The translations under genes and the position numbers were made by a program. Positions 28,167 to 63,412 of a stretch of 64,000 nucleotides of DNA are shown piece after piece; position 1 is the stretch's first letter; each line of letters begins with the position of its first letter. A model generated the notes under the pieces. It worked only from the letters and a program-made list of their open reading frames with translations, was not told the origin of the DNA and ran no database searches. Source of the DNA: Hanleya hanleyi (lineage: Eukaryota > Mollusca > Polyplacophora > Lepidopleurida > Hanleyidae); the NCBI GenBank assembly GCA_036873755.1, contig JAVTVY010037116.1, positions 93,428 through 157,427 on the forward strand. Direction: 5' to 3'.

Positions 28167-28172
28167 ACTATC

Positions 28173-46560: not shown

Positions 46561-46599
46561 CTCTCATGGCCAAACCATCTGCCGTATTGCTCGCGGGGC

Positions 46600-47000: not shown

Positions 47001-47157
47001 AAGGTAGCACTGCCCAGAAACAAAGCAGTTTTTTTTTGGCATGAAGAGATAACACTCACACTTAGATCAACTGATATTTGGTCGAGCAAATGAACAGAAA
47101 CCAATTACTATTATATCCATCATACCGTATAACGAATGGAGCGGCTATAAATATACA

Positions 47158-47318
47158 TTATCGGGTCACTGTGTTGTTCCGGCACTTTGTATCAGCTCGA
47201 GTTCTCGGAGTCTGGATCGCCGTATCGACCGAGACCGCAGGTCGAGGTCGATGCGGCGATCCAGACTCCGAGAACGAGAGCTGATACAAAGTGCCGGAAC
47301 AACACAGTGACCCGATAA
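47158..47318. mobile_element. 161-bp near-perfect hairpin element
   Basis: The left arm starts TTATCGGGTCACTGTGTTGT and the right arm ends ACAACACAGTGACCCGATAA. About 65 bases on each side are inverted complements with one or two differences (AGCTCGAGTTCTC against GAGAACGAGAGCT). The centre has a second, smaller palindrome (TCGACC..GGTCGA). It is a foldback/MITE-like sequence; the near identity of the arms suggests recent insertion or strong pairing. Target duplication is not clear. Confidence 0.88.
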
Positions 47319-48098: not shown

Positions 48099-50490
48099 TC
48101 AGCGGTGGCGGAAGCATGTGCGAGACGGTGTCGGACGTGAACATGCAATAATGGTGCTCATTTTCTCCTGCATGCTGGCAGAAGCCACGGCATAATTATT
48201 CAGACTTGCTATATTCTTGTGCCCGGTCAGCTGCATAATGGTCGTGGGCGGAACTCCCGCATCGAGGAGACGGGTAGCAGTGGATCGTCGCGCACTATGA
48301 TTAGTTTTACGACCAGGTAAGTTGGATTTATTGGCCATGTTTTTCACCATATACTTGAGCATGTTTTCTCCTGCGGCCTGACATTTGTACCAGATTTGGC
48401 TACCGGGATTTCTTTTATGATTTACGCTCAAGTAGAATGGGGCATCAGCTTCGCACATCTTCAGGGGTCGGTGATCGCGATAAACATTGTAAACCGAAAC
48501 CGGACAATCGAGGGGCATTTGCGTACACTTCGCCATCCATAAGATGGCTTGCGAATCGTGTGTCTCCATTATTGCGGAGCGATATCCGGTACTTTACCGG
48601 ATTCTGTTCGGCCTTCATCCGGCGGATAACAGACTCCAGAAATCTGATAAATTACAGGTTTTCATACCACTTCCGAAACAGATATTGCCTGGGCTTACAA
48701 ACTATATAGGTATGTATAACTTTCGTATCATCCAAGAGGTGTGGTGGATCTGAAATTTTGAACAAGTAGTTCATCACATGACTCGAAAATGGCGAGTTAC
48801 GTTGGGCTTACGTCGGTAGACTTTAGCTGATTGGCTGACGAAGTCACGTGATATTGATTTATGGAAATTCCCTCTGGCAGTTGCCGAAAGTAGGCTGAAC
48901 ATGGATACACACGATCCCAGGGTCAGTCTTACCGCGTATAGATGACCGAGATGGTTACAGGTTGAATCGAGGGGATTACCGGGCAAGGCGAATTGTTTCG
49001 GCTGGAAAGGTCGCACATGACTGTTCGCATTTGCGCCACTTCTGGTTTTTGTGTCTCTCTCGTTGAATTCCAAATATTCCATGCCGCTCTCATCAATTTT
49101 GAGCGCGATATCCCCCCATCTAAGTTTTCTGTTTTCGCTTGAGGGTCTCATTCCAAAATGCATTGAATTGTTCAACCATATTTGATTTCGCAAGGCTGTG
49201 GGGCTATGGACTCCAGTGACACGCTTTTCTTTCAGCATTTTTTGTTCATTTTCAGTTAATGGGTCAGATTTATTTGGGCGATTTCCCTTCCCCTTTTGCT
49301 TCAGTTCCTTTCGTTTGGATGCGAGAATATCCCTACATGTTTGAAATGCCCTGTCCAGGAGCAGACTGTAGGCCAGGGGTATTCATTTTCTCGAAGGTAA
49401 CGGTCGATGCCCCTGTGATAGCTTGTGAGCGTGTCTGGCTCATAGTCGGACCCGTCGTGCTTTCGAATGGACAAAAGGAAGGAGCCAACATAGTTGTTCA
49501 GTTCCATTGGGGGAATTTCATGAATTCTGCGAGTTTCGAAGCGTGGCCCAGAAGCCAGCCATCCGCCAAATATTTTGCTCACACTTTGAGTTTTACGAAC
49601 AGTATTTTTGTTCTTCATGGTCTCCACAAAATCGAGCTTTTCTGTTGCGCTTGTGTCGATGGAAGTGGGGTGTCTTTGTGGAAAGTTTTTTCGTGTCTGT
49701 GCGCAATCTCACGTTCGGCTATTTCCGTATTGGCGGAACAAGCCTCTCATATAGAACGCACAAATCCCCACTGGTGGGGAGGGTATGACGATCACGCAGT
49801 GAGCCGGCTAAGAAATAGTGCCTTTGATAATCGAGAGATCCGGGTGCATTTTATTGTGAAATTCAGTTAATTTTAACCAAACGAACATAACTCATTCAAA
49901 TTATACAAAACTATTTCTATGTTTAGTTGAATAATAGCAATCTATCACCAGAACTCAGCAACTGGGCTCGCCAATAAGGAAATAGACGAATGCGAGATTG
50001 GTTCCGCCGAAAATTGATTGTATGCATGATAAGATAAGATTCTTTATTGCACTGAGCATCCCATTTGGGACAGAGTACAAAACATATAAAAAGTAGAATA
50101 AATAAGAAAGTAAACAAACAAGTGCGACGTTTCCGTATCTGCTCCCAGAAATCCACTAGGCCAGAGGTCAGTTTTCGCAGCTAAAGTGAGTTCTGGGGCT
50201 AGATTGGTCTGTGCGGTCAACATTTTGATGTCTTCAGGCGGGGAGTACACTACATTTTCAGAATTTGCTGGGGTCAGTGGGGGTGTTTGATTTTCCTGGA
50301 CATCAGATTGAATTGGCCCGCCAGATTCCGTGGTCGGGTCAGTTACCCGATCGAGTTCTGCCACTAGCATGGCATCGTCGCTGCTGGAAATCATACTGGA
50401 GCCATGTGTATGTTCATCATCCGACAAGAAACCCAGGTCGAAATTGGCAGGTTCTGAATCGCTGCTATCGAAGGCGAGATAATCAGCCAT
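48099..50490 (-). pseudogene. Crypton-type (DUF3504) tyrosine recombinase, broken
   Basis: Minus-strand pieces in order. An acidic N-terminal segment starts MADYLAFDSSDSEPANFDLG (ATG at 50490). A core-binding segment (49660-49301) contains SVSKIFGGWLASGPR...SYHRGIDRYLRENEYP. A segment from ~49370 in another frame runs into 49238-48774, with FGMRPSSENRKLRWGDI and DTKTRSG. The last segment (48569-48099) has NHSARRSTATRLLDAG, LTGHKNIASLNNY. These supply the Arg, Lys, HxxR, GHK and Tyr residues of tyrosine recombinases, in the style of Cryptons and Crypton-derived host genes. At least one frameshift (near 49370) and an unaligned ~370-base stretch (48570-48935) interrupt it. A GTAAGA near 48936 could be a splice donor, so part of the interruption may be an intron. 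Not a complete gene as read. Confidence 0.8.
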
Positions 50491-50599
50491 AGTTCTGAAC
50501 GCAAAGTCACAGAGATCGACAAGTTCAATGTATACCTTTGATGACCGAATTCCACAGAGAAAAATTGTAAAACAGTGTTTATAACTTGTAAACGTCAAT

Positions 50600-51109
50600 A
50601 AATTGGCACGAAATAACGGTTATAAATATATACACAATGTCGTTGTTAAACTTGTTTGAGCTGAGTACATCGTCGAACTTCGAAACTTGTGAATGTGACT
50701 ACATGTAACAACAACAACAAACATCGAGAGAAGCAGACGATAAATATTTTAATAAAATAGCATTGGTTTTTGCAATTATATGTCTTTTGAGTATTTTATT
50801 TATAGAATATACGCCGACCGTTCGTCTATGTGTGTTTTGGATAACTTTTACGATTGGGAGTTTTACTACTACTACTGGTAGAAAATCATGAATGAAATTG
50901 ACTGTAGTTCAGGGGTTTCCCCGATAGAGGGCGATGTAAAAGTAGTCCCGGTTTCAAAGCATACTGACACGGGTACTGACTATATCGATACGGAAATAGA
51001 AAACATGAGTGTGTATCACTATCCAAGCACGCACAGGTATATGATAAATGGTGCTTACAAAATTGTTGCGGCTGATATTTGCGTCTTTCGCTAGGTAAAT
51101 AGACTGAGC
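50600..51109. other. Non-coding; nothing recognised
   Basis: AT-rich sequence upstream of the Crypton-like gene. No feature supported beyond CAACAACAACAA near 50710. Confidence 0.4.
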
Positions 51110-51400
51110 CATTATTTAGGCTCGGGCTAAAAGAATTATTTGATTCTCCAAGGCCTGAGGAATACATTAATTCAGCTACCTCTAATAATAAAAAAGATTT
51201 ATATATACCAAATACCTCATAAAGAGCTAGTTTATTTCAATTAACTCGAGAATAAAGATTAGAGAACGAAATACAATTATGATGCGACCAAAACTAAGTC
51301 ACAATTACTCCGTGTGGATGATGAAGCAATTTTATAACAGACATTTAGATTTGGTCTTGTTAGTAGTATACAAAGAGTATTTGAAGGTCTATTGACCTCA
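51110..51400 (+). repeat. Arm fragment of the foldback repeat family
   Basis: Matches 40690-40930 in order: GAATTATTTGATT, CAGCTAC(A/C)TCTAAT, CTAGTTTA(C/T)TT, AATAAAGATTAG, TTTGGTCTTGTT. It directly precedes the YY1-motif array, so the left end of the virus-like element is probably between ~51380 and 51470. Confidence 0.6.
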
Positions 51401-51472
51401 GAAATTTGCATATGACCTCTGTGACGTCACGCGCCAGCCAATCAGAAGCGAGTATTGTGTCACATGGGGTCA

Positions 51473-51962
51473 TGTGTGGTGGTGGATGGGTGGGTGGTGG
51501 GTTTAAGATGGCGGCTGTGGTGGATGGGTGGGTTGTGGGTTTAAGATGGCGGCTGTGGTGGATGGGTGGGTGGTGGGTTTAAGATGGCGGCTGTGGTGGT
51601 GGATGGGTGGGTGGTGGGTTTAAGATGGCGGCTGTGGTGGTGGATGGGTGGGTGGTGTGTTTAAGATGGCGGCTGTGGTGGTGGATGGGTGGGTGGTGGG
51701 TTTAAGATGGCGGCTGTGGTGGTGGATGGGTGGGTGGTGGGTTTAAGATGGCGGCTGTGGTGGTGGATGGGTGGGTGGCGGGTTTAAGATGGCGGCTGTG
51801 GTGGTGGATGGGTGGGTGGTGGGTTTAAGATGGCGGCTGTGGTGGTGGATGGGTGGGTGGTGGGTTTAAGATGGCGGCTGTGGTGGTGGATGGGTGGGTG
51901 GTAGGTTTAAGATGGCGGCTGTGGTGGTGGATGGGTGGGTGGTGGGTTTAAGATGGCGGCTT
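51473..51962 (+). repeat. 38/41-bp minisatellite of YY1-type motifs
   Basis: About twelve units of GTGGTGGATGGGTGGGTGG + TGGGTTTAAGATGGCGGCT; the first steps are 38 bases, the rest 41 (AAGATGG at 51505, 51543, 51581, 51622, 51663, 51704, 51745 and so on). Every unit carries AAGATGGCGGC, the consensus bound by the zinc-finger factor YY1. The array ends ~10 bases before the TATA box of the CARD-PC4 gene. Three more identical-type units are at 55049-55183, upstream of the RING gene on the other strand. It looks like an enhancer/promoter array. Confidence 0.93.
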
Positions 51963-51972
51963 GTAGAAAAAC

Positions 51973-52015
51973 GTATAAAAGGAGGCGATTTTTAGGGGAG
52001 GGGAGTATTCATTGC
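51973..52015 (+). promoter_or_regulatory. TATA box and initiator of CARD-PC4 gene
   Basis: GTATAAAAGG (51973-51982), followed ~33-37 bases downstream by GTATTCATTGCAC. The same layout (TATA, ~30 bases, CATTC/TTCA) recurs before other genes of this element. A CCTG/AGCC tetranucleotide tract (52043-52148) lies in the presumed 5' UTR. Confidence 0.75.
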
Positions 52016-52042
52016 ACTATCCTGTGGAGCACTCTGACATCT

Positions 52043-52108
52043 GACCTGACCTGACCAGCCTGCCTGCCTGCCTGCCTGCCTACCTGTCTGCCTGCCTGCT
52101 TCACCTCT

Positions 52109-52145
<37 letters not shown>

Positions 52146-52148
52146 CCT
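52043..52148 (+). repeat. CCTG and AGCC tetranucleotide microsatellites
   Basis: Runs of CCTG (52043-52100) then AGCC (52108-52145), in the presumed 5' leader of the next gene. Confidence 0.9.
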
Positions 52149-52256
52149 AGCCTGCTTGCCTGTTTTGTAGAACCTTTTACTTTTTTTCATTTTACCAGTG
52201 CAAATTCACCAGACTTTTACACCGTAGCAGTTGCTCATCAGCCTGAGCCCATAGTC

Positions 52257-53504
52257 ATGGCGTCATCATCATTTTTAGTGAGGCTTGGAAAGTACCGTGT
52301 TCGTCTGATTGATGAGATGCAGCATGTGGGTGAATTATGTGATTTCCTTATGGAGGAAAACATACTTCTGAAACAGCGTGTGGAAGATATCATGGCTGAG
52401 AAAACCACTTCAGCACAAAACACAGCCCTCATCGATGGTGTACTGCGCTCTACCCCCTATGCATTTCTAGCCTTCGTGGCGGGGTTGAAGATCACGGGAA
52501 ATGAAGAACTAGCAGATCTACTTGAAGCCGACGTTATACAAGATGATGATATCTTAGTCATGGATACCACCGAAGAGCGTACAGTTAGCAAACGTACGCA
52601 ATCAGCGTCTGGTGTACCTGCCAAACGCGCTGCACGACCCAAACGACCCCGACTAACACCTTTAGAAATACCTGAGTCAGTGCTTCAGCCAGTACTCCAG
52701 CAAGTGCCTGAGCCTGTGAAAGAAGAGGTGCAACTTCCTATGTCTGTGCAGGATATCAATAACATTATTCAGCAGGCCTACCAGGCAGCCCACAAGGACA
52801 TTTGGGAGCTCTCAGCCTATTTAACTGTGAGTGTCAAAGACGAAGAAGTGCATTTTAACGCATCGGGCTTTAACGACAGACCCGGTAGGCATATTGCCAT
52901 GACCTTAGACACCTGGCAAAAACTGGAGACCCTTGATTACGCCATCGATGCGGTTATTCGCGACCAGGGGAGTGACGAAGCGAAATTTTATGTGGGTGAC
53001 GACATCTTTGTCAGCTGTGCCTATTTCAACGACCAGCTCCTGGTGCATATCCGTAAATGGAAAATGAGGTTAGATACGCAAGAGCGTGTTCCTTGTCCTC
53101 AGGGTGTCACCTTGAAATTAACGGCGTGGCGGAAGTTGCAGAGTGTCACAGCTACAATTCGTCAAGCTCTGGTTTACCAGGTGTCTCACTATATTTATAA
53201 GAAGTACATCGACACAGTCCTGGATCTTATCAGACCTCACATTCGACACTTGCGTATCCAAGCATGTACAGGCTGTGAAAATAACAGTCCGATAAACCAG
53301 CATACGTGTGTGGACACTAGTGTACCCTCATACGCACTCATCACTGAGGCACTACAGGCCGTGACCGAGACGCAAATTGCCCTGGCAGTGGAAGCTGCCT
53401 GCCCTCCCAAAATTCCACGTGAAGAGATTACTACCTACATCTACGTGCACCAGGGGCGGAAAGACGATGATGAGTTCAAACAAGTCTTGTTGCAGAACTA
53501 TTGA
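52257..53504 (+). CDS. CARD domain - PC4-like fusion protein
   Basis: 415 codons, intact. Residues ~10-90 match the CARD fold pattern: RVRLIDEMQHVGELCDFLME, then a VEDIMAEKTT segment, ALIDGVLRSTPYAFLAFV, and GNEELADLLE. CARDs mediate assembly of apoptosis and innate-immune complexes. A basic linker (KRAARPKRPR, ~124-133) resembles a nuclear localisation signal. Residues ~180-300 contain two PC4 (p15 coactivator)-like units; the clearest is FYVGDDIFVSCAYFNDQLLV...HIRKW...GVTLKLTAWRKLQ, the ssDNA-binding fold of PC4. The C-terminus has a CxxC...HxC group. The gene has its own TATA promoter behind a YY1-motif array and converges on a RING gene. Domain calls are from pattern reading. A role in host cell-death or innate signalling interference plus nucleic-acid binding is inference. 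Confidence 0.78.
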   Translation: MASSSFLVRLGKYRVRLIDEMQHVGELCDFLMEENILLKQRVEDIMAEKTTSAQNTALIDGVLRSTPYAFLAFVAGLKITGNEELADLLEADVIQDDDILVMDTTEERTVSKRTQSASGVPAKRAARPKRPRLTPLEIPESVLQPVLQQVPEPVKEEVQLPMSVQDINNIIQQAYQAAHKDIWELSAYLTVSVKDEEVHFNASGFNDRPGRHIAMTLDTWQKLETLDYAIDAVIRDQGSDEAKFYVGDDIFVSCAYFNDQLLVHIRKWKMRLDTQERVPCPQGVTLKLTAWRKLQSVTATIRQALVYQVSHYIYKKYIDTVLDLIRPHIRHLRIQACTGCENNSPINQHTCVDTSVPSYALITEALQAVTETQIALAVEAACPPKIPREEITTYIYVHQGRKDDDEFKQVLLQNY

Positions 53505-54179
53505 ACAAGTGTGATGTTGAAAAACATTTACCGTATTCCTACACGTTCATTGAAGTGGCTTGAGAGCGTATAATTGTATTAAAAATTCACAGTTTTTTTT
53601 ACTGTTAATTGTATTAAAATTCAATACTCACAGTTGAACACGTTCATTCTATTGTCTTGTTGTATAAATATTGAGCATTTTCAAGTTTTATTGCATTGGA
53701 ACATTCAGACATTATCATCTGCCAGTCTTGCTCAAGCTGAAAATACGGCTTCTCTCTTCACGTATTCCTACACTATGTTCATTGTGCATTGAAGCGCCTT
53801 CATAGCGTATAATTGTATTAAAATTCAATACCCTGGTGAACACGTTCATTCTATTTGTGTTAATAAAAAATAGTAGAAAATTAAAAAATGGTTGTTAGTG
53901 TTCATTTTTTTAAAAACATCTCCCTCCCCCTTCCCCTTCCCCTCTTTTCTAGTCCCACGCCCCTGTGCTGGTTTCAATAATTTCAGTCCGTTATCATTCG
54001 GGCTGTAATGTTGGTTTCAATAATTTCAGTCCGTTATTATTCGGGCTGTAATGTTAAAAAAAAAAAAAAATTTAAAAATTTAAAAAAAAAAATTTTCATA
54101 GAGGAAAGGGTGAAGGGAGCTGGTGTTAATTTTTGGGTGCTTTTTGAGTTAGAAGTTTTCCCTTTCGGAAAGATGGGGT
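53505..54179. other. Intergenic region between convergent genes
   Basis: AT-rich 3' regions of the CARD-PC4 gene (+) and RING gene (-). It holds a diverged direct duplication (ATTCCTACAC..GTTCATTG..GCGTATAATTGTATTAAA at ~53533 and ~53763), AATAAA-type signals near 53865, two copies of the palindromic repeat (53984-54048), and a poly-A/T tract (54054-54100). Confidence 0.7.
53984..54048. repeat. Two copies of a 29-base palindromic repeat
   Basis: CAGTCCGTTATCATTCGGGCTG at 53984-54005 and its single-base loop variant at 54027-54048. The stem CAGTCCG/CGGGCTG (one G-T pair) extends outward through ATT/AAT with one mismatch, and the loop is TTATNATT. Five more copies lie at 57000-57547. Confidence 0.9.
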
Positions 54180-54195
54180 GGCTCTGAAAAGAGCC
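54180..54195 (-). terminator. Histone-type 3' stem-loop of RING gene B
   Basis: On the minus strand: CAAA-GGCTCTTTTCAGAGCC-ACCCC. A six-base stem, the UUUC loop and both flanks match the stem-loop of replication-dependent histone mRNAs exactly. It begins 27 bases after the stop at 54222. Thirteen bases past the stem is GAAAGGGAAAACTTCTAAC, a purine-rich stretch in the position of the U7-binding histone downstream element. Expected consequence: SLBP/U7-dependent cleavage without a poly(A) tail. Confidence 0.88.
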
Positions 54196-54221
54196 TTTGT
54201 AAAAGTGTTACGACACTTGTT

Positions 54222-55001
54222 TTAGGAGCGGTAAATTCTCTTTACCCCGGCTACCTGCTTCCTACACACGGGACACTTGATCTTTAAATGCTGTTCGTCC
54301 GTTTCAGCGCAGGGGCACACAGCCCCTATACATGTTAGCTTCACCCAGCATTCTTCACATAGGCATAAATGCCCGCACGGAAATAGGGCGTACAGGCTTT
54401 CTTCCTCTGTACACACACTGCAGCTTGATTTACTTTGTTCCTTCTGTAGGACTTCTTCTTGTTTTAAAATCATAACGTCCATTTGAGTAATGTCTTGTCT
54501 CATGCCATTAATCTGTTCGTTGAGGCGGGTTACTTCGGCCCAAGAGCATGGTGATGGTAGTGATGTTGTTGTTGTTGTTGTTGTTGTTTCGGCGGTAGCC
54601 GACGTGGTTTCGCAAGCCGACGTCGTTATAATCGGAGTTTGAGTAGCCGTTGTATTTGCTGGAGGTCTGTTACTGTTTAACCAGGGGAGTTCTTCTTCCT
54701 CATCAGTTATATCCGCATCAGTTATATCCTGATCCTCTTCTTCCAGCACCACCCTCCTGATTTCTTGGTCTTGTTCTTGACTTCGTTGTCTTATCAACCT
54801 CGCATCTTCTTCCATTACTTCCCTCCGCAGCTCTTCCAGTTGTTCTTCACTTCGCCGTATCATCGTCTCGTCGGTAATAACCTGCTGAAAGCTTGTAATT
54901 ATTGCCACTCCACCATTGTTATGTTCATCTCCACTCGTAATCACCTCTCTGTGTTCTCTAGGGTCTCTCGGATCGGTGAAGAGTCTTCGTCTTGTACCCA
55001 T
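54222..55001 (-). CDS. RING-finger protein B (IAP-type C-terminal RING)
   Basis: 259 codons, intact, from the ATG at 55001. Residues ~45-105 form an acidic, heptad-like Glu/Arg-rich segment (likely coiled coil). A Thr-rich linker follows, then a second helix (WAEVTRLNEQINGMRQDI). The C-terminal RING (~195-255) reads CSVC...LYALFPCGHLCLCEECW...IKCPVCRKQVAGVKRIY, like the RING of inhibitor-of-apoptosis E3 ligases but with a ~20-residue insert holding extra cysteines. No BIR domain is present. Likely a ubiquitin ligase; the substrate is unknown. The promoter lies at 55012-55047 with three YY1 motifs upstream, and the 3' end has a histone-type stem-loop. Confidence 0.85.
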   Translation of the reverse strand: MGTRRRLFTDPRDPREHREVITSGDEHNNGGVAIITSFQQVITDETMIRRSEEQLEELRREVMEEDARLIRQRSQEQDQEIRRVVLEEEDQDITDADITDEEEELPWLNSNRPPANTTATQTPIITTSACETTSATAETTTTTTTTSLPSPCSWAEVTRLNEQINGMRQDITQMDVMILKQEEVLQKEQSKSSCSVCTEEESLYALFPCGHLCLCEECWVKLTCIGAVCPCAETDEQHLKIKCPVCRKQVAGVKRIYRS

Positions 55002-55011
55002 GATTGTAGTT

Positions 55012-55047
55012 GTGAATAAATGACAAGATACTACGCGTTATTTATAG
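55012..55047 (-). promoter_or_regulatory. TATA box and initiator of RING gene B
   Basis: Minus strand: ACTATAAATAACGCGTAGTA, then TCATTTATTCACAACTA 25-33 bases downstream. Almost the same string (ACTATAAATAGCGCGCAGTA...TCATTTATTCACAATTA) precedes the gene at 55870, so the two promoters are duplicates. Confidence 0.85.
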
Positions 55048-55048
55048 T

Positions 55049-55183
55049 ATAGGCGGCTGTGGTGGTGGATGGGTGGGTGGTGGGTTTAAGATGGCGGCTG
55101 TGGTGGTGGATGGGTGGGTGGTGGGTTTAAGATGGCGGCTGTGGTGGTGGATGGGTGGGTGGTGGGTTTAAGATGGCGGCCGG
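55049..55183 (+). repeat. Three further YY1-motif units
   Basis: Same 41-base unit as 51473-51962 with AAGATGGCGGC at ~55088, 55129 and 55170, in the same orientation as the big array although the adjacent gene is on the minus strand. Confidence 0.93.
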
Positions 55184-55207
55184 TGTGAGTGAGTGCAATA
55201 TGGTGGT

Positions 55208-55310
55208 ATCTGCTAAAAATTTTTGTGTTTTATTTTTCCAACTTTAAAACGGGGTCTCATTTTTTGCAATAAATGTGAGTTCACTGCAGCATGTTTATCG
55301 AAAAGAAAAA
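55208..55310. repeat. Partial third copy of the 0.4-kb inverted-repeat arm
   Basis: TTTTTGTGTTTTATTTTTCC, CATTTTTTGCAATAAATGTG and GTTTATCGAAAAGAAA match the right arm (58477-58850) in the same orientation and the left arm (55416-55797) inverted. The segment and the left arm therefore form a nested foldback immediately upstream of RING gene B. Confidence 0.7.
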
Positions 55311-55415
55311 AAACTAGGATTTTTTTCCCCATTTTACACCCTATAGCTGTACTCACATTTTTCCCTGCACACTGTATAGTGCTGTGTTACCGTTGCCCAA
55401 GGATAAAAATTTCCT

Positions 55416-55797
55416 AGTTTTCTTTCTTTCTTTCGATAAACCAGTTACAATTTTCAGGGTCACATTATAAGGCTGTGAGCAATATACTTGACGTATTTTT
55501 AGCCAGGAAAACCTATTTATTTCCAGTGTACCGGGTTTTCCACACTACCGTACTATAACGTTACGCGTCTAAAAATCGATAAAATTATTAAAAATAACGG
55601 CTTAGTCTATCGCTATCCTGCTAAGTTTTTAAATGCTACACCATGAGTTGCCTGAGTTCAACTTGAAATAAAATTTATACGTGCACTGACATTTATTGCA
55701 AAATCACACAAGTTTAAAATTGGAAAAGAAACACAAATATTTTGTTCAGCGTAAGTGTAGACAAAACAGATATAAACGATTTCGCTGACGTCCGCGC
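55416..55797 (+). repeat. 0.4-kb inverted repeat, left arm
   Basis: Inverted copy of 58477-58850 at ~90%. Shared blocks (left arm orientation) include CGATAAACCAGTTACAATTT, GAGCAATATACTTGACGTAT, CTACCGTACTATAACGTTAC and CGATTTCGCTGA. The arms enclose the acidic/RING gene pair (+) and the gene at 57831 (-). Each arm ends right next to a TATA box, so each supplies upstream promoter sequence to the gene reading inward. Confidence 0.92.
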
Positions 55798-55804
55798 CTT
55801 ACAC

Positions 55805-55838
55805 TATAAATAGCGCGCAGTATTTACTCATTTATTCA
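55805..55838 (+). promoter_or_regulatory. TATA box and initiator of acidic/RING gene
   Basis: ACTATAAATAGCGCGCAGTA with TCATTTATTCACAATTA following; 33 bases from TATA to the TTCA adenine. Near-duplicate of the RING gene B promoter. Confidence 0.85.
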
Positions 55839-55869
55839 CAATTATGCCAGTGTCTACTAGACGTGCACA

Positions 55870-56178
55870 GTGATGGAGTCATCCCTGGCTGAAATCATGG
55901 ATATTGACATATCAGACTTCATCACAAATGATGATAATGAAGTACAACTGCTCGGCAACATCATTAATATGGTACATGACGAGCCATGGTTGGATGCTAT
56001 AATGGAAGACTTATTTACACGTCAACCCCGGCACCACCCTCCAGCAGCCACACCGCATCTTAGAGACCTCCCAGTAGCCACACCGCATCTTAGTGACTTC
56101 CCAGCAGCGACATCGGATCTTACCCCAGTCGAATACCAACGTTTTGACGACATAGACCGCGTGTTAGAAACTATGTGA
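55870..56178 (+). CDS. Small acidic protein, probably the N-terminus of the downstream RING protein
   Basis: 102 codons from the ATG at 55870; a preceding ATG at 55843 is out of frame. It is acidic (MMESSLAEIMDIDISDFITN...) with a short repeated proline segment (ATPHLRDLPV / ATPHLSDFPA). It ends ETM-stop exactly where the RING frame opens one base back. The RING frame has no ATG of its own from its opening at 56148 to its last residue. The two are therefore best read as one gene joined by frameshifting, splicing, or broken by a single-base change. Resembles no family I recognise; acidic segments of this kind often activate transcription or bind host proteins. Confidence 0.6.
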   Translation: MMESSLAEIMDIDISDFITNDDNEVQLLGNIINMVHDEPWLDAIMEDLFTRQPRHHPPAATPHLRDLPVATPHLSDFPAATSDLTPVEYQRFDDIDRVLETM

Positions 56179-56855
56179 AACAACAACAAAGCTCCCAAGC
56201 TAAAGAAAAAGCAGGAGAAACGGGACAAGAAGAAGAAACGGGACAAGAAGAAACAGAAACCCAAACCCAAACCCAAACCGACACAGAAACAGAAGAAGAA
56301 GAAGGAGGAGAAGATGAGGAGAAGAGGAAAGACTTAAAAACCACAGTATCCGAAAAAAGGAAAGACTCAAGAAAAAACAGGAAAGACGCAAGAAAAAACA
56401 GGAAAGACGCCAGAAGAAACAGGAAAGACGACAGAATCGGTAAAAAAGACGCCAGAAGCTATAGAAAAGACGCCAGAAGCAATAGAAATAGGCAAGAGGC
56501 AAGAACAAACAGAAAAGACGCAAGAAAAAAGAGAATAAGAGAGAATACAAGAAAAATAAGCCAAAAAGAAAACGAAGACGTCATCAACTACGTTTCCGCA
56601 ATAACAACAACACTGGCATCCAACACAGAACGCCAAGCAGCCTGCTATTTACACTGCGTGCAATGCTGTAACCATTTTGCTAAATACGCTATTTTTCCTT
56701 GTGGGCATCAAGCCTTGTGTGTGGCTTGTATACATCAACATGCCCAAATACCAGTGTGTGCGGACGCTTACAAACCCCTAGTGTGTGAATTCATAGCCTT
56801 GACATGCCCGGTATGTACTGTGAGAAGACAACACCAACAGCCTCCAACGATGTAA
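56148..56855 (+). pseudogene. RING-finger protein D (frame without its own start)
   Basis: The open frame ends PPTM at 56855. The middle is a long Lys/Arg/Asp-rich repeat region (units like RKDARKN, ~residues 55-130 from 56175), then a helical spacer. The C-terminal RING reads CVQCCNHFAKYAIFPCGHQA...CVACIHQH..., then LTCPVC. The FPCGH...C..C layout and the extra cysteine-containing insert match RING protein B, so they are diverged paralogs in inverted orientation. Because no ATG exists in frame, it needs the acidic frame at 55870 as its start. Listed as possibly broken; a programmed frameshift or small intron is the alternative. A histone-type stem-loop follows 18 bases after the stop. Confidence 0.65.
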
Positions 56856-56873
56856 TCGCTTACATATTCCAAA

Positions 56874-56889
56874 GGCCCTTTTTAGGGCC
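56874..56889 (+). terminator. Histone-type 3' stem-loop of RING gene D
   Basis: CCAAA-GGCCCTTTTTAGGGCC-ACCCCA: six-base stem GGCCCU/AGGGCC, four-U loop, canonical ACCCCA flank. Thirteen bases later is GAAAGGGAAAATTTCTATC. The flank and downstream stretch (ACCCCATCTTTCCGAAAGGG) are identical to those after RING gene B, in inverted orientation. Confidence 0.88.
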
Positions 56890-57607
56890 ACCCCATCTTT
56901 CCGAAAGGGAAAATTTCTATCAAAAAGCACAAAATAAAAAAATAACATCAACTCCCACACACACACACATATAAAAACACCTATCCCTCTTATAAATTTC
57001 AGTCCGTTATTATTCGGGCTGTAATGTTTATTCCTTTACTGGTCGTCAACGACAGTGACAAATGTCCCCCTCCTCCCTTTTCCCCCTTTCCCCTCACCCA
57101 CTGGTTCAAATAAATTTCAGTCCGTTATCATTCGGGCTGTAATATTAATTACTGAGAGAGAATTTTTTTTGTAAAATTAGTAACATGTCGCACAGGGTCG
57201 CCAACGACAAAAACATGTCCCCCTCCTCACTCCCCCTCTCCCCCTCTACCCCTCCGCCCCCTGGTTCAAATAAATTTCAGTCCGTTATGATTCGGTACGA
57301 CAGTGACAAATGTCCCCCTCCTCCCCTTTCCCCCTTTCCCCTCACCCACTGGTTCAAATAAATTTCAGTCCGTTATCATTCGGGCTGTAATATTAATTAC
57401 TGAGAGAGAATTATTTTTGTAAAATTAGTAACATGTCGCACAGGGTCGCCAACGACAAAAACATGTCCCCCTCCTCACTCCCCCTCTCCCCCTCTACCCC
57501 TCCGCCCCCTGGTTCAAATAAATTTCAGTCCGTTATGATTCGGGCTGTAATATTAATTACTGAGAGAGAGAAAAAAAAAAAAAACCTGTGTTTGTAAGAG
57601 AGAGATT
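56890..57607. other. Intergenic region with tandem duplication and palindromic repeats
   Basis: Contains a CA microsatellite (56955-56969) and pyrimidine-rich CCCCCTCC tracts. A ~248-base tandem duplication shows CGACAGTGACAAATGTCCCC at 57049 and again at 57298. The palindromic repeats lie within it. Confidence 0.75.
57000..57547. repeat. Five copies of the 29-base palindromic repeat
   Basis: CAGTCCG-TTATNATT-CGGGCTG at 57000-57021, 57118-57139, 57366-57387 and 57526-57547, plus a truncated copy at 57278-57295 cut at a duplication joint. N is T, C or G while the stem is invariant. Most are preceded by TTCAAATAAATTT and followed by TAAT(A/G)TT. Confidence 0.9.
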
Positions 57608-57623
57608 GGTCCTGACAAGGACC
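57608..57623 (-). terminator. Possible second histone-type stem-loop
   Basis: Minus strand GGTCCTTGTCAGGACC: correct stem and loop pattern (U at loop positions 1 and 3), preceded by AAC and followed by AATC. No purine-rich downstream element follows. Probably a duplicated, inactive or back-up copy of the one at 57755-57770. Confidence 0.55.
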
Positions 57624-57754
57624 GTTAATATCGGGCAGGGGTTGTTTTTTGGTGTTGCAGTTTGCTAATATTATAGAATAAAGAGGGATAATGTGGGACC
57701 TGTGCTTTGAAATTTGTGCCAAGTTATAGAAGCTCTCTTTCGATAGCATTGGTT

Positions 57755-57770
57755 GGCCCTGATAAGGGCC
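57755..57770 (-). terminator. Histone-type 3' stem-loop of the 57831 gene
   Basis: Minus strand: AAC-GGCCCTTATCAGGGCC-AACCA, 60 bases after the stop. Fourteen bases beyond the stem is GAAAGAGAGCTTCTATAAC (complement of 57723-57741). This resembles the vertebrate histone downstream element (AAAGAGCUGUAAC) that pairs with U7 snRNA. Confidence 0.8.
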
Positions 57771-57830
57771 GTTAGAGTTCAATTTGATCACCCTGTTTTC
57801 TTCAGGAGGGAGTTTTCTTGTCTACTCCCC

Positions 57831-58388
57831 TCACATTTTACTGACAGAGAAATAACTGTAAGGTGTTAGTGTGTATTTATAAACACCCTCTTCTTCTTGT
57901 TCGGCACTAATGGGCATGTCCTCCAAGAAATCGGCGGCAGCTATTGTCTGTTCGTTGTCCTCTTCGTGCTTGTCCTGTTCTTCGAAAATGTTGGTGGGGA
58001 GGTCTTCTAGGGGAAAATCCACGGGCGCTGTTGATGATGATGGTATATCATGCACATAGTCCGGCTGGACTGCTGGCTCTTGTTGTGGACGAGGGGCCAG
58101 CAGCGGAGGAGGGGGACGGTTCACCTCTTCCTTCATGGTGCTCTGTAACAATTGTAACCACCCCGCCTCGCTGATGGTTCTCGACGAATTGATAAGTCTC
58201 CGTAGATTCTCCGCTGTTTCTCCTCGGGCACTGTCTTCGTTGTTGAGTCTTGCACTCCATCCGGTAAATTCTTTTAACCAGAACTCTTTAATGGCTTCCA
58301 TCATCACCTTCTTCTGGCGTCTTGATATTGCTCTCACTCGTCGGGAGGCCTTGGTGGTCGACATTGCTGCTATACGGCGGCTGCTCAT
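57831..58388 (-). CDS. Unknown protein, basic N-terminus, acidic C-terminus
   Basis: 185 codons from the ATG at 58388, intact. Not recognised. The first ~28 residues are Arg/Lys-rich (MSSRRIAAMSTTKASRRVRA). A helical part follows (MMEAIKEFWLKEFTGWSARL...NLRRLINSSRTISEAGWLQLL), then a Pro-rich linker with PPPPLLAPRP, then a Glu/Asp-rich tail. It is transcribed towards the RING D gene from a TATA promoter at the edge of the right inverted-repeat arm and ends with a histone-type stem-loop. Length and charge split resemble small regulatory or early viral proteins, but no function can be assigned. Confidence 0.7.
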   Translation of the reverse strand: MSSRRIAAMSTTKASRRVRAISRRQKKVMMEAIKEFWLKEFTGWSARLNNEDSARGETAENLRRLINSSRTISEAGWLQLLQSTMKEEVNRPPPPLLAPRPQQEPAVQPDYVHDIPSSSTAPVDFPLEDLPTNIFEEQDKHEEDNEQTIAAADFLEDMPISAEQEEEGVYKYTLTPYSYFSVSKM

Positions 58389-58437
58389 TTTCTTCTTCTT
58401 CTCTGTTGATATGTGATGGCAGTGAAAGGTTTTGGAA

Positions 58438-58470
58438 TGGCCCGCATCAAGCTGGTCGCTAGCTTATATA
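58438..58470 (-). promoter_or_regulatory. TATA box and initiator of the 57831 gene
   Basis: Minus strand TTTTATATAAGC with CCATTCC 32 bases downstream. Upstream is the right inverted-repeat arm (CGCTGAGGTCCGCGC), mirroring the arrangement before 55870. Confidence 0.7.
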
Positions 58471-58476
58471 AAAATA

Positions 58477-58850
58477 GCGCGGACCTCAGCGAAATCGTGA
58501 TATCTGTTTGGTCTACATTTACGCTGAACAAAATATTTGTGTTTCTTTTCCAATTTTAAACGGTTGTCATTTTGCAATAAATGTCAGTGCACGTATAAAT
58601 TTTATTTCAAGTTGAACTCAGGCAACTCATGGTGTAGTATTTAAAAATTTAGCAGGATAGCGCTAGACTAAGCCGCTATTTTTAATAATCTTATCGATTT
58701 TTACACGCGTAACGTTATAGTACGGTAGTGTGGAAAACCCGGTACACTGGAAATAAATGGGTTTTCCTGGCTAAAAATACGTCAAGTATATTGCTCACAG
58801 CCTTATAATATCACCCTGAAAATTGTAACTGGTTTATCGAGAGAAAACTA
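58477..58850 (-). repeat. 0.4-kb inverted repeat, right arm
   Basis: Inverted partner of 55416-55797, with small gaps and substitutions. See the left arm for shared blocks. The arms and their contents span 55416-58850. Confidence 0.92.
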
Positions 58851-59282
58851 TAAAAACTATAGAAAAAATAGCCTTCGTTTCATTGCAAGAAGGCCAACGT
58901 GCAGAGTTCCCAATCATTTTGGTGCGCTGTGGATGACGCCATCTAGCGGTCGTTACAGGCACTGAGAATGGAATGTCTATCGGCTTGAAAGGGGTCATCT
59001 GCTAATAACCAATAGGCCGGTGAAGCATTTTGGAGACGATTTCAATGTTGCCTTCTCTCCCACCTGTGGGCGAATTCTTAATTGTTACAGTCCAGGCACA
59101 AATGACACGCAGATGTAGCGTCGCAAAATGTTCTGAAGTATATTTATCTTGGAGCGAGCCTACAAAATTGCATTCTAATCTCAATTGAATTATTTTCTAG
59201 AACAGGGTACGGGTACGATACGATACGAATTTTATTACGATGAAATATTTTTTTTTACTCACAAGTCATTAGCAAGAATCGA
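58851..59282. other. Non-coding; upstream region of PC4-like gene F
   Basis: No coding or repeat feature supported. GGTACGGGTACGATACGATACG near 59206-59227 is a short direct repeat about 60-80 bases before the TATA box of the next gene. Confidence 0.5.
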
Positions 59283-59319
59283 TATATACACATTTGCCTG
59301 GACGGTGTTTTGTCATTCA
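59283..59319 (+). promoter_or_regulatory. TATA box and initiator of PC4-like gene F
   Basis: GATATATACA (59281-59290) and TGTCATTCATC, 30-32 bases apart. The start ATG (59325) follows the presumed transcription start almost immediately, giving a leader of only ~10 bases. Confidence 0.7.
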
Positions 59320-59324
59320 TCACT

Positions 59325-60020
59325 ATGGCAGTGCACGAAACGGAGCTCGCCTTCTTCCAACTCACGTCTGACGTGATTCTCATCGTCTATGACCATGAAC
59401 TGCAGCTCATCGAAGAACATCCCCGAGAGGTGAAGCTATGTTTAAGCCTACCAGGCTGGACTCTATTGACACGGTTGTTACAGGGAAAAGAGCCCGAAGT
59501 CGATTTCATGCACGTGGGAGTCGGTGTTTACCTGCGAAGTGGTAGAGATGATTCTTTTTTTCCTCGGTTAGAACAGTGTGGTGGTACCGCTATCATACTC
59601 CGGCCGGCATTATGGCAGGCGCTGAAAGCTATTATCACCGACGTCCACGACGTACTCTACCCTGAGGCCAACTCTGTAGCCACGCGCACTCTTACACCGG
59701 ACTGTATCCTATTGTTGTACCCCCAACGCGTGGAGCTCATCGATGACGATAGTCGATGTTGGTGTACGTCTGAACCCGCGCGTGTCTCTTTATCCCCGGA
59801 AGGGTGGATTACCTTGAAACGTGTGTTATGCGGTAATCTCGACGGGGATAGCATTCACCTGTGTGACGATGTCTACATTTTCCGCGGTCCCTATTTTACT
59901 CGACTCCTCTGTCTCAAGCGAGGTGGTTTTACTCTGGACCCCGATCTATGGACGGCTTTGCAACAAGTAGTCCCCATGGTCGATGAAGTACTCTCTCCAC
60001 AGGAGCCTCTCACAGAATAG
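59325..60020 (+). CDS. PC4-like repeat protein F
   Basis: 231 codons from the ATG at 59325; an upstream in-frame TTG is not a start. The protein is two similar halves (~1-115 and ~118-231), each with two PC4-like units. Examples are GWTLLTRLLQG, then VGVYLRSG...AIILRPALWQALKAI; and GWITLKRVLCGNLDGDSIHL, DDVYIF...GGFTLDPDLWTALQQVVPMV. The pattern of short beta strands, then G(F/I)TL..x.W..L plus a helix, is that of the PC4/p15 ssDNA-binding coactivator fold. It resembles the next gene (one such half) and the C-terminal half of the protein at 52257. Likely a nucleic-acid-binding protein; whether it serves replication or transcription is unknown. Confidence 0.75.
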   Translation: MAVHETELAFFQLTSDVILIVYDHELQLIEEHPREVKLCLSLPGWTLLTRLLQGKEPEVDFMHVGVGVYLRSGRDDSFFPRLEQCGGTAIILRPALWQALKAIITDVHDVLYPEANSVATRTLTPDCILLLYPQRVELIDDDSRCWCTSEPARVSLSPEGWITLKRVLCGNLDGDSIHLCDDVYIFRGPYFTRLLCLKRGGFTLDPDLWTALQQVVPMVDEVLSPQEPLTE

Positions 60021-60045
60021 TACGACTCATGTCTGTACCTGACAC

Positions 60046-60083
60046 TATAAATACCAGGGGTGAGACAGAGTGTGTGTCATTCA
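60046..60083 (+). promoter_or_regulatory. TATA box and initiator of PC4-like gene G
   Basis: ACTATAAATACC (TATA at 60046) and GTGTCATTCACC, 33 bases apart, located 25 bases after the previous stop. The motif TGTCATTCA is identical to that before gene F. Confidence 0.78.
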
Positions 60084-60105
60084 CCGTTCGACATTTAGAG
60101 CAAGC

Positions 60106-60657
60106 ATGTCATCCGACCTACGAGCCATCCTACCCCTTACACCCCAGGCGGGGTTACACGTCTATGAAGATAAAGTCACCCTGGTGGAAGATTGTGGAGC
60201 TATTTGTTGGGCGCCCGCTGAGACTCTATCGAATACGGTGACGCTACAGCGTGACGGCTGGACTAAATTTAAACGGGTGTTGAGCGGTGAGCTCGACGGA
60301 CACCTCATCCACATAGACAATGCCATCTACGTATACCGTACCTCCCTCTTCGTACGCCTGGGCCGCTACCAAGACCCTACGCGAGGCTTCACCCTAGGCC
60401 CCTCTCTGTGGTCAGCCTTGGAGAAAGTAGTGCCTATTGTGGACCAGCTGTTTACACCGGACGAACGATCATCAGACCAGTTGGCGTGGGCTCGTGCTAT
60501 GGAGGACGCGCTGGCTGAACCCCATGAAAAACAACATGAATCCGATACAGCCTGGGAAGACGAAAGTACTATATCTATAGAATGCACAGAGGCTAGAGTG
60601 TCAGTGTCACCTGATGAAGCGAACACACATGACGGGGACCCAGGGGCACCCCGATGA
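60106..60657 (+). CDS. PC4-like protein G
   Basis: 183 codons from the ATG at 60106; the preceding in-frame GTG is upstream of or at the presumed transcription start. Residues ~10-110 match one half of protein F: VTLQRDGWTKFKRVLSGELD, IHIDNAIYVY, RGFTLGPSLWSALEKVVPIV. The C-terminal ~70 residues are acidic and low-complexity. The stop overlaps the integrase ATG (ATGA at 60654-60657), unusual for a eukaryotic gene pair. This suggests a shared transcript with reinitiation, or a separate internal promoter for the integrase. Confidence 0.75.
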   Translation: MSSDLRAILPLTPQAGLHVYEDKVTLVEDCGAICWAPAETLSNTVTLQRDGWTKFKRVLSGELDGHLIHIDNAIYVYRTSLFVRLGRYQDPTRGFTLGPSLWSALEKVVPIVDQLFTPDERSSDQLAWARAMEDALAEPHEKQHESDTAWEDESTISIECTEARVSVSPDEANTHDGDPGAPR

Positions 60658-61779
60658 GGGGTAAGAAGACCGTGATGAGGAGGTCCCGAAAGGGAAAAAA
60701 GGGGTCAGCATCTACAGTGAACAAGGTGTTAACCGATTTGTATTACAACCCTACCAGTCCAGCCGCGTATAGCGCTGTGGGAGCGCTCGCTCGAGCTGTC
60801 CATTCCCAAGGCATCAGCCGAACTGAAGTTCGAGACTGGTTAAAAACCCAAGACACTTATAGTTTACATCGAGCAGCCCGACGACATTTTCGCCGTAACC
60901 GAGTGATCGTAGGAGGCATAGACGCGCAATGGCAGGCTGATTTAGTGGATATGAGTCGATTTGCACCTCACAATGATGGACATCGGTACATATTGACCTG
61001 TATCGATATTTTATCCAAGTATGCCTGGGTACTACCCATTCGCACCAAAACAGGAGAGAATCTAATACGGGCGTTCCAGCAGATTTTCAAGACGGGGCGC
61101 AAACCTCTTTATTTGCAAACGGATGAAGGTACAGAATTTCTCAACCGACCCTTTCAAGCCTTTCTTAAGAAACAGAAGGTATTTTTCTTCCATACGTACA
61201 ACGAGACCAAAGCCTGTGGTGGAACGATTCAATCGCACCTTCAAAGGACGAATGTACAAGTATTTTACTGCCCAAAACACCCGACGGTACATCGATGTAC
61301 TACCTCAACTGGTGCAAGGATACAATCGAGCCTATCATCGCAGTATCCAGCGAGCTCCCCGCGATGTGGCAGAACGCAACGAACGTCAAGTGCGTGGTAC
61401 GCTGTACTCACCCAGTCCACCATCACTCACGTCACCCCGTTACAAACGCGGAGATGTGGTACGGATCAGTAAAGTGAAAGGCCAATTTGAGAAAAGTTAC
61501 TTGCCCAACTGGAGTGACGAGCACTTTGTCATCGTTCGCCATAAACCTCGACAGCCACGCGTCTATCAACTGGAAGATCTACAAGGAGAAACACTGCAAG
61601 GCACGTTTTACGAGGCAGAATTACAACCCATAGTGAAAACACCGAAAGACTACTACACGGTGGAGAAGATTTTGAAAACGGAACGTCGACGTGGCATCCC
61701 CTATCATTTCGTCAAATGGCAAGGGTGGCCCCGTTCGTTTAATTCCTGGGTGTCAGGCCGTGACATGAAACGCCTATAA
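60654..61779 (+). pseudogene. Polinton-type rve integrase with chromodomain, frameshifted
   Basis: DDE integrase that would insert the element into the host genome. The first segment has a basic start, a zinc-binding-like N-terminal region (YSLHRAARRHFRRN), and the catalytic core with GGIDAQWQADLVDM (first Asp), YILTCIDILSKYAW and LYLQTDEGTEF (second Asp). The frame breaks near 61213, just before the catalytic Glu. The other frame continues VVERFNRTFKGRMYKYF (Glu), then AYHRSIQRAPRDVA, a KRGDVVRISK SH3-like barrel, and a C-terminal chromodomain (YTVEKIL...YHFVKWQGWPRSFNSW). The second frame runs to the stop at 61777-61779. All catalytic residues survive, so the break is one small indel: recent decay or a read error. 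Confidence 0.9.
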
Positions 61780-61811
61780 ATTCTAACCCCTATCACCGAC
61801 ATCCTTCAGTG
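61775..61811 (+). promoter_or_regulatory. Putative TATA/initiator of mucin-like gene
   Basis: CCTATAAATTC overlaps the integrase stop; CCTTCAGTGTAG follows with ~33 bases from TATA to the TCAGT adenine. TCAGT is the classic initiator form. The ATG is at 61824. Confidence 0.6.
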
Positions 61812-61823
61812 TAGGGTTGTACC

Positions 61824-62381
61824 ATGGATAGTGCACATCTACCCTTACTGTTACGAACTCGAAAAGCACAAGGGGGTACTATAGTGTGTCTAGTAGTGCT
61901 TGTGGGTACGTTATTTGGAGGCGTGTTCTACGATTTGGCGTACGTGATATCCTGTTTCAACACCCTGCGTCCCACAATTCCACCTCAGTCATCCACCACT
62001 TCGACCACCACCACTACGACGCTGCCTACGCCATCCAAGACGTCAAGGTACCGCCACGTATCAACCCAGACACCCACGTCTACCACGCCGTCTACTCGAT
62101 CCACTACATCACCTGACCGTCACATCCATCCACCCACGCCTACCACGACCCGTACTACTACTACTACTACCACGCTGCGTACTACGACGCCACGTGATCC
62201 TCCGTCACCCCTGAGAAGCGACGATCCTTCCAGCCCATCACCACCACCACCTAGTACCACCATCACCACTCCTACGACGCTAAACATATTTAGAGTGCGT
62301 GAATCACGTTTACCACGGCAACGGTACCCGTTCAACTACGATCCCCGGTGGGATCCACGAGAACGGGGGGTGGGCCTCTGA
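61824..62381 (+). CDS. Mucin-like single-pass membrane protein
   Basis: 185 codons, intact. Residues ~18-43 form one hydrophobic segment (GTIVCLVVLVGTLFGGVFYD) after a short, mildly basic start (LLLRTRKAQ), fitting a signal anchor. Residues ~50-160 are almost entirely Thr, Ser and Pro, a likely heavily O-glycosylated stalk. The tail is basic with aromatic residues (RVRESRLPRQRYPFNYDPRW). It lies between integrase and ATPase in the block that holds virion genes. It could be an envelope or spike-like surface protein, or a low-complexity region whose reading frame is only coincidentally open; sequence bias limits certainty. Confidence 0.6.
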   Translation: MDSAHLPLLLRTRKAQGGTIVCLVVLVGTLFGGVFYDLAYVISCFNTLRPTIPPQSSTTSTTTTTTLPTPSKTSRYRHVSTQTPTSTTPSTRSTTSPDRHIHPPTPTTTRTTTTTTTLRTTTPRDPPSPLRSDDPSSPSPPPPSTTITTPTTLNIFRVRESRLPRQRYPFNYDPRWDPRERGVGL

Positions 62382-62399
62382 ACGCCGAGCGCAAATCAC

Positions 62400-62420
62400 C
62401 AAATAAAAAAAAAAAAAACT
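62400..62420 (+). promoter_or_regulatory. Poly(A) signal and A-run before ATPase
   Basis: CCAAATAAAAAAAAAAAAAA immediately precedes the ATPase ATG. AATAAA lies ~20 bases after the mucin-like gene's stop and could be its poly(A) signal. The 14-base A-run directly upstream of the ATG is unusual. Confidence 0.5.
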
Positions 62421-63034
62421 ATGGATCCTCGGTGGCAGCATCCTTTCACGTGTCTCATCGCTGGACCGACAGGGTCGGGAAAAACACACTTCGTTCAACG
62501 TCTCATCCAACACGGGTCAGCCCTCATTTCACCTCCTCTAGCTCGCATCCTGTGGTGTTATGGAGCTTGGCAACCCACGTACGAGGAACTGGCACGTGTC
62601 CCGGGACTCACCTTAATGGAAGGCTTACCCCTGAGGATACGCCCAAAGACACGTTGGTGGTGGTGGACGATCTCATGACGGAAACGGACAGTCGAATCAC
62701 CCGTCTCTTTACCAAAGGAAGCCATCATCGTCGGTTGAGCATCATCTACATCGTGCAGAATCTCTTCAGTAAGTACAAAGAGCACAGGAACATTAGTTTG
62801 AATGCTCAGTATGTAGTGTTATTCAAAAACCCCAGAGACGCTTCCCAAATTACGCACCTGGCCCAACAGATGTACCCTAAAAACACGGCCTTTGTACGAG
62901 AAGCCTTTGAAGATGCTACCCAACCAGCTCACGGGTATTTACTCATCGACTTGAAACAAGACACTCCCTCATCCCTTCGATTGCGTACCCACATTTTTCC
63001 CGGAGAGGTACAGACAGTGTACACACCCAAATAA
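62421..63034 (+). pseudogene. A32/FtsK-like packaging ATPase, frameshifted
   Basis: Viral DNA-packaging ATPase. It starts MDPRWQHPFTCLIAGPTGSG, with Walker A GPTGSGKT at residues ~15-22. ILWCYGAWQPTYEEL follows, then the frame breaks near 62620-62630. The other frame carries Walker B (TLVVVDDLM), LFTKGSHHRRLSIIYIVQNL, LNAQYVVLFKNPRDASQ and GYLLIDLKQDTPSSLRLRTH to the stop at 63034. It is about half as similar to the palindrome ATPases as those are to each other and lacks their C-terminal helical domain. The stop overlaps AATAAA (63030-63035), a likely poly(A) signal. The single shift is the only defect. Confidence 0.88.
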
Positions 63035-63069
63035 AAGAAGAAGACAATCCACTCTAGCCGTCACTCATC

Positions 63070-63408
63070 ATGTCTGCACGGGTACGCAAGCACGCGCCGG
63101 CCCTACGCGTATTACGCAGCGCGCCACCGGAGGTGGGCCGGGCCCTGGTGCGCGGGGCGGATCCCGACTTGGTACGGTGTTTGTGTGAAGTGGCGCATAA
63201 TGTGTTAAAAGGCAATGTTCCGCTCAGTCCTCCGCAGAAAGGGAAATTGCAACGGCACAAGGCGGGTCTCCGAACGTTGGTGAAGAAGACGGGTAGTGTG
63301 AAGAAAAAGAAACAGGTGTTACAGCGAGGTGGATTTCTCGGCGCACTCCTCGCACCCTTAGCCGCTACTGTACTGGGGCCGTTACTAGGCTCCATCTTGG
63401 GACGCTAA
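63070..63408 (+). CDS. pX-like basic/hydrophobic capsid-associated peptide
   Basis: 112 codons, intact. A basic, Arg/Lys-rich body (MSARVRKHAPALRVLRSAPP; KKTGSVKKKKQ) ends in a Gly/Leu/Ala-rich hydrophobic C-terminus (GGFLGALLAPLAATVLGPLL). This is the layout of the adenovirus pX/mu-like core or membrane-active peptides found in adintoviruses and Polintons. It sits between ATPase and the conserved protein at 63413, as in related elements. Assignment is by composition, position and C-terminal pattern, not by strong identity. Confidence 0.72.
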   Translation: MSARVRKHAPALRVLRSAPPEVGRALVRGADPDLVRCLCEVAHNVLKGNVPLSPPQKGKLQRHKAGLRTLVKKTGSVKKKKQVLQRGGFLGALLAPLAATVLGPLLGSILGR

Positions 63409-63412
63409 CGGC

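Follow-up and report, generated by a model that had tools for sequence, protein, structure and literature searches.

The stretch of DNA analysed here (the window, 64,000 nucleotides (nt) of contig JAVTVY010037116.1) comes from the chiton Hanleya hanleyi, whose assembly amounts to 2.48 Gb in 52,793 contigs. Part of a virus-like element occupies the right portion of the window. The window ends together with the contig, inside this element, and PolB, capsid and terminal repeats would lie outside the contig. Three genes of the element, called here RING D, RING B and gene 57831, are followed by stem-loops SL1, SL2 and SL3, respectively, and then by a purine-rich downstream element (Table 1). Signals of this kind are generally regarded as essentially exclusive to replication-dependent histone mRNAs.

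Histone-type 3'-end signals in the window

A preliminary description of this DNA had placed stem-loops with the loops UUUC, UUUU and UAUC behind the three genes, each followed by GAAAGRG after 13-14 bases. The three stem-loops do lie there, all in the sense of the gene upstream, and GAAAGRG begins exactly 13 nt past each stem. They are also recognized by the Rfam model of the histone 3' stem-loop (RF00032, gathering score 34), SL3 with a score below gathering (E of 3.6e-4 in 18 kb). The same scan revealed an extra hairpin, SL4, farther behind gene 57831, and gave no match at E ≤ 10 in bases 1-46000. RING B had been described as a gene: its frame is indeed open but, in this copy, its sole in-frame ATG is at 56850.

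Counted on both strands, the strict hairpin occurs eight times in the window, i.e., at four sites, the motif being its own reverse complement. Dinucleotide shuffles of the window (300) hold a mean of 0.16 strict hairpins; two of them reach three and none reaches four. GAAAG is found 9-24 nt downstream at three of the sites and in none of the shuffles. A looser 21-base pattern, allowing up to three mismatches, gives six matches, which is near chance (5 of 100 shuffles equal that); SL1 and SL2 are the only two without a mismatch. When SL1 and SL2 are compared in blocks of 20 nt, the hairpin is 85% identical and the next block 100%, while blocks farther away share 0-55%. The coding parts of RING D and RING B are alike in only 65 of 150 nt and 18 of 50 residues, and the two proteins share 33% identity over 57 amino acids (aa).

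Table 1. Positions of the 3'-end signals, the genes they follow and the other features of the element (bits and cut-offs of SL1-SL4 refer to RF00032)
Feature	Position	Strand	Characteristics
SL1, stem-loop 3' of RING D	54180..54195	-	loop UUUC, flanks CAAA/ACCCC; 37.9 bits over 54200-54154; 26 nt past stop
SL1 purine downstream element, GAAAGGGAAAACUUCU	54151..54166	-	13 nt past stem; resembles host histone downstream elements
SL2, stem-loop 3' of RING B	56874..56889	+	loop UUUU; 36.7 bits over 56869-56915; 18 nt past stop
SL2 purine downstream element	56903..56918	+	13 nt past stem
SL3, stem-loop 3' of gene 57831	57755..57770	-	loop UAUC; 27.5 bits over 57775-57730; 60 nt past stop
SL3 purine downstream element, GAAAGAGAGCUUCUAU	57726..57741	-	13 nt past stem
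SL4, extra hairpin	57608..57623	-	no purine element; 18.5 bits; 207 nt past stop of gene 57831
RING D gene, 259 aa	54222..55001	-	IAP-type RING; Pfam PF13920 2.4e-8; BIRC3 RING 3eb5 E 4.7e-7
RING B frame	56148..56855	+	preceded by a 101-aa open reading frame (ORF), 55873-56178; Pfam RING below cut-off, E 0.0064
Gene 57831, 185 aa	57831..58388	-	function unknown; no Pfam or PHROGs match
Upstream block	55418..55773	+	inverted, 94% identical to 58500-58855 ahead of gene 57831
Integrase core and chromodomain	60654..61779	+	in two different frames; Pfam rve 2.7e-11, Chromo 5.7e-6
ATPase-like frame, broken	62421-63034		Pfam below cut-offs; best Adeno_IVa2, 18.9 bits vs 21
Protein shared with integrase-bearing contigs L002 and L004	63413-64000		33% identity in L004
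Two mutually paralogous proteins	59325-60017 and 60106-60657		42% over 110 aa
CARD+PC4 protein	52257-53504		domain search

Copies of the element and host histone genes

The copies used for comparison were chosen by protein (RING D, gene 57831) or by position (RING B), never by stem-loop; labels from L001 onward designate the retrieved DNA stretches. The host assembly contains at least 151 matches to RING D, 12 of those listed being interrupted by in-frame stops, and at least 160 to gene 57831, those listed sharing 55-100% identity and five of them having in-frame stops. Among 30 copies of RING D (including the window itself), 28 keep both the hairpin and GAAAG at 13 nt; L027 has no hairpin, and L034 has lost the purine element and carries a change in the last stem base. 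In the same way, 19 of 20 gene 57831 tails, which were picked to span protein identity, keep the hairpin at 55-97% protein identity with GAAAGAG 12-14 nt downstream (L121 with five of six pairs), and L114 has a deletion at the hairpin site. At E ≤ 0.1, RF00032 recovers SL3 in the sense orientation from 12 of the 20 tails, and the seven hairpins that it misses have changed stem pairs, mostly the first one. For RING B, the hairpin module is present in 18 of 19 regions. The gene is recognized by tblastn in 17 of them, all with full pairing and, 13 nt on, the purine element, which in one case reads GGAAGG; the stretch L152 begins just before the hairpin and has it, and L154 has neither the gene nor the hairpin. 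Within this genome, the motifs are thus kept in related elements while the genes diverge. As for the RING D protein itself, copies L013-L042 show a median ratio of nonsynonymous to synonymous substitution rates (dN/dS) of 0.63 at a median dS of 0.037, which is rather high for a conserved protein.

The stems of these hairpins change and remain paired. The RING B set (18 copies and the window, spacer fixed at 13 nt) contains nine distinct hairpins in which 54 of 54 cells are paired, with changes on both sides at pairs 1, 3, 4 and 5. Joined to those of gene 57831, it contains 15 distinct hairpins with 89 of 90 cells paired, and none of 5000 column shuffles, made without correction for relatedness, pairs as well. 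This larger set reuses seven gene 57831 hairpins found with a flexible spacer, the spacer (10-16 nt) giving most pairs being chosen, which introduces a small bias. The number of pair types is reached by 4699 of the 5000 shuffles, and the four window hairpins alone give weak covariation (29 of 500 shuffles). Only one sequence departs from G-C at pair 2. The G of this pair is important for SLBP, and its near-invariance agrees with that.

Host histone genes provide the direct comparison. Twenty tails were taken from 150 PF00125 matches; the proteins end in GERA in nine cases (H3), in TSSK or TSSV in six (H2B) and in EE or QE in five. CGAAAGRG is present in 19 of these tails. The strict hairpin is found in 16; the purine element follows it after 13 nt in 13 of these, after 14 nt in two and after 12 nt in one. 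The other four comprise a hairpin with one mismatch (L127), one with a closing G-U (L129), one with a shortened loop (L145) and a tail with no hairpin (L138). The latter belongs to an H2B-like gene ending in TSSV, whose tail holds AAGATGGCGG. RF00032 matches 17 of the 20 tails at 20.4-36.2 bits, four above and 13 below gathering. SL1 and SL2 outscore all 20, SL3 falls within the host range, and the UAUC loop of SL3 also occurs in two host H3 tails (L133, L134). The end of a host histone H1 gene (L006), CCAAAGGCCCUUUUCAGGGCCACCCAAUUCUUCGAAAGAGGAAAUUUCU, is near to SL2 and scores higher still (41.1 bits). The element signals therefore equal those of the host histone genes in each of their parts: stem, loop, spacer and purine element. 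This match, together with the compensatory stem changes, supports the proposal of the preliminary description that the element may borrow histone pre-mRNA processing for expression in S phase.

A genome-wide search with RF00032, in which 75 of 360,901 first-look candidates were scored, gave at least 74 places, 72 of them above the cut-off. Sixty-eight of the 74 were retrieved and assigned by the frame just upstream; the other six are on contig C35382, along which such places recur about every 4.4 kb. The 68 comprise 29 of the RING D family, seven of RING B, 28 of another multi-copy gene or its relative, one H1, one transposase-like frame and two others (L101, L102) that lack a GG-N12-CC hairpin with six pairs. 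As these places were picked by stem-loop, retention among them proves nothing.

The other multi-copy gene, also non-histone, encodes a protein of 106-107 aa that starts with MENHAKLY or MDNNYSKLY and likewise ends in a histone-type stem-loop (e.g., L104:942-1262, L104:5696-6016 and L103:358-681). Four of its 28 places (L005, L007, L071, L080) were attributed to it by 3' text alone, and its protein has no significant Pfam or PDB match. The transposase-like frame (L083), which we take to be Harbinger-like, lies 33 nt ahead of a histone-type stem-loop without CGAAAG.

Proposed use of the signal and rival explanations

In histone pre-mRNA, according to PMC7026596 and PMC5011920, the hairpin is the binding site of SLBP and the purines downstream are the pairing site of the U7 small nuclear ribonucleoprotein (snRNP); CPSF73 cleaves the RNA between these sites. 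The three genes of this Maverick/adinto-like element carry the full host signal, and from sequence comparison it is very likely that they use SLBP and U7 to produce non-polyadenylated mRNAs tuned to S phase. Host SLBP would bind the stem-loops of the three element mRNAs, the purine element, which starts 13 nt past the stem, would serve the host U7 snRNP as its pairing target (CGAAAGAGAACUUCUA) and CPSF73 would cut a few bases past the stem, leaving mRNAs that end at the stem-loop without poly(A). Synthesis and translation of these mRNAs would take place mainly in S phase, with decay setting in once replication stops, and the benefit could be the expression of host-takeover genes while the DNA-synthesis machinery is at hand. 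The genes may also be early ones, as the preliminary description called them. A search of 46000-64000 for U7-like RNA gave nothing at E ≤ 10, and none of ten proteins scanned has an SLBP domain; reliance on host factors is therefore proposed.

Several results weigh against such a use or are neutral. In gene 57831, the pairwise difference is 0.02-0.13 in the 3' stretches, 0.13 in the hairpin and 0.21 in the last 30 coding bases, and conservation is thus not hairpin-specific. In young copies of RING D, gene and 3' region vary to about the same degree, the tail of L039 being mis-cut in this comparison owing to a premature stop. An argument from rates for selection on the hairpin fails by itself; the neighbouring 3' sequence is equally conserved. 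Equally many pairs with changes on both sides occur in 138 of the 5000 column shuffles. Human U7 pairs no better with SL1 and SL2 than expected by chance (0.232 and 0.228 of the shuffles), and its pairing with SL3 is marginal (0.066); for the published CUCUUU core, pairing beats most shuffles (fractions 0.021, 0.021 and 0.007 for SL1, SL2 and SL3). The search of the assembly did not find the host U7 gene, which says little because no control genome gave a match either. Finally, AATAAA lies 78 nt past the RING B stop and 530 nt past that of RING D.

The latter motif, the conservation of the surrounding intergenic DNA and the loss of hairpin or purine element in L027, L034 and L114 would fit an inherited decoration, in which the element captured histone tails whose stem-loops are now passive parts of a 3' untranslated region, transcripts ending at poly(A) sites. 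However, compensatory changes that leave almost every cell paired would be unexpected without a function, as would the constant spacing and purine element at such protein divergence, and neither AATAAA nor ATTAAA occurs within 600 nt past the stop of gene 57831. Passive decoration thus appears improbable. The hairpin could instead serve SLBP only, for translation or stability, with 3' ends made otherwise and without U7. SL4, a hairpin without purine element that is retained in 15 of 20 gene 57831 copies, speaks for this, as does the failure to find host U7. Yet the copies that keep the hairpin have, 12-14 nt behind SL1-SL3, a purine element of the host histone form, and a role restricted to SLBP seems still less probable than decoration. 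The stem motif equals its reverse complement, and further hairpins and inverted repeats occur in the element, which might also suggest palindromes acting at the DNA level (replication, recombination or regulatory sites) and merely resembling the histone hairpin. This idea is hardly credible and was discarded because strand use is consistent: the loop, the flanks and the purine element all follow the orientation of the upstream gene, and their form equals that of host histone ends.

Use of the SLBP/U7 pathway by the three genes would be a new viral expression strategy, combining S-phase timing with the lack of a poly(A) tail. Such mRNAs would be invisible to poly(A)-selected RNA sequencing, which may explain why they have gone unseen. 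More broadly, it is likely that a large family of animal virus-like elements ties host-takeover genes to S phase through SLBP/U7-dependent, non-polyadenylated ends. Because a second, apparently unrelated gene family seems to do likewise, the histone 3' end is probably a transferable module and not private to histones. The copies also constitute natural variant substrates for the recognition rules of SLBP and U7, with G-C, A-U or C-G as pair 1 and UUUC, UUUU, UAUC or UUUG as loop.

Other features of the element and relation to known systems

Besides the 3' signals, the three units have TATA boxes 39-82 nt ahead of an ATG, and those of RING B and gene 57831 have in common the 356-nt upstream block. 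They may thus be co-regulated. The IAP-type RING of RING D and the CARD of the neighbouring protein suggest interference with host death or immunity signalling. Protein searches gave no homologue at E ≤ 0.001 for RING D or gene 57831, and the predicted fold of the latter is poor (mean predicted local distance difference test, pLDDT, of 54.5).

Among the repeats of the region, a 29-nt sequence has six exact copies on the + strand (53981-54052 and 56997-57551), often after AATAAA, and folds as a 7-bp hairpin on that strand (the two copies that were folded have z of about -5 to -6); it is perhaps another 3'-end signal. Arrays of 12 and three exact AAGATGGCGGC motifs, presumably YY1-like, occupy 51505-51960 and 55088-55180 in enhancer-like tandem units of 38-41 bp. 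Inspection by eye also revealed a second, inverted pair of Maverick-like ATPase frames, at 26988-28193 (-) and 28807-29523 (+), where RF00032 has no match.

The closest named relative of the integrase is from the chiton Liolophura sinensis (69% identity across 82% of the piece), and near relatives occur in chiton and ribbon worm. Four integrase-bearing contigs (L001-L004) were found among bacterial genome contigs and are probably host contamination. For example, L004 (JACCHT010000004.1, 32 kb), which has pieces of an integrase and a protein related to that at 63413-64000, comes from a Bathymodiolus symbiont bin that it probably contaminates with host DNA. Searches of IMG/VR with RING D, the integrase piece, the integrase profile, a capsid-candidate ORF of L004 and two exact stem-loop patterns gave no relatives, which is weak evidence since this collection seems to hold no such elements. 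In a phage collection, the integrase had no match, and SL1 had just a partial one at chance level (E 0.3). Searches of an open-access library brought up no virus or transposon described with histone-type 3' ends. A loop of potato spindle tuber viroid has reportedly been compared with the histone hairpin, in connection with SLBP, as a structural analogy inside the viroid and not as an mRNA 3'-end signal. The available part of PMC11071296 describes no histone-type 3' end.

The integrase with chromodomain, joined to the protein found in other integrase-bearing contigs (L002 and L004), brings the element close to Mavericks, Polintons and adintoviruses, and makes its membership of the Polinton/adintovirus group plausible. 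The integrase-bearing contigs L001-L004 differ from it in having no histone-type 3' end at E ≤ 1. None of them shows the three genes either and, for this reason, they do not test the claim. With histone mRNA 3' ends, the element signals share the hairpin of 6 bp and 4 nt, the CAAA/ACC flanks, the 13-nt spacer, CGAAAGRG and the short distance to the stop, whereas the genes that bear them are not histone genes; they encode RING proteins and a protein without Pfam match, in a multi-copy virus-like element. The signal is known and so is the type of element; their combination is new.

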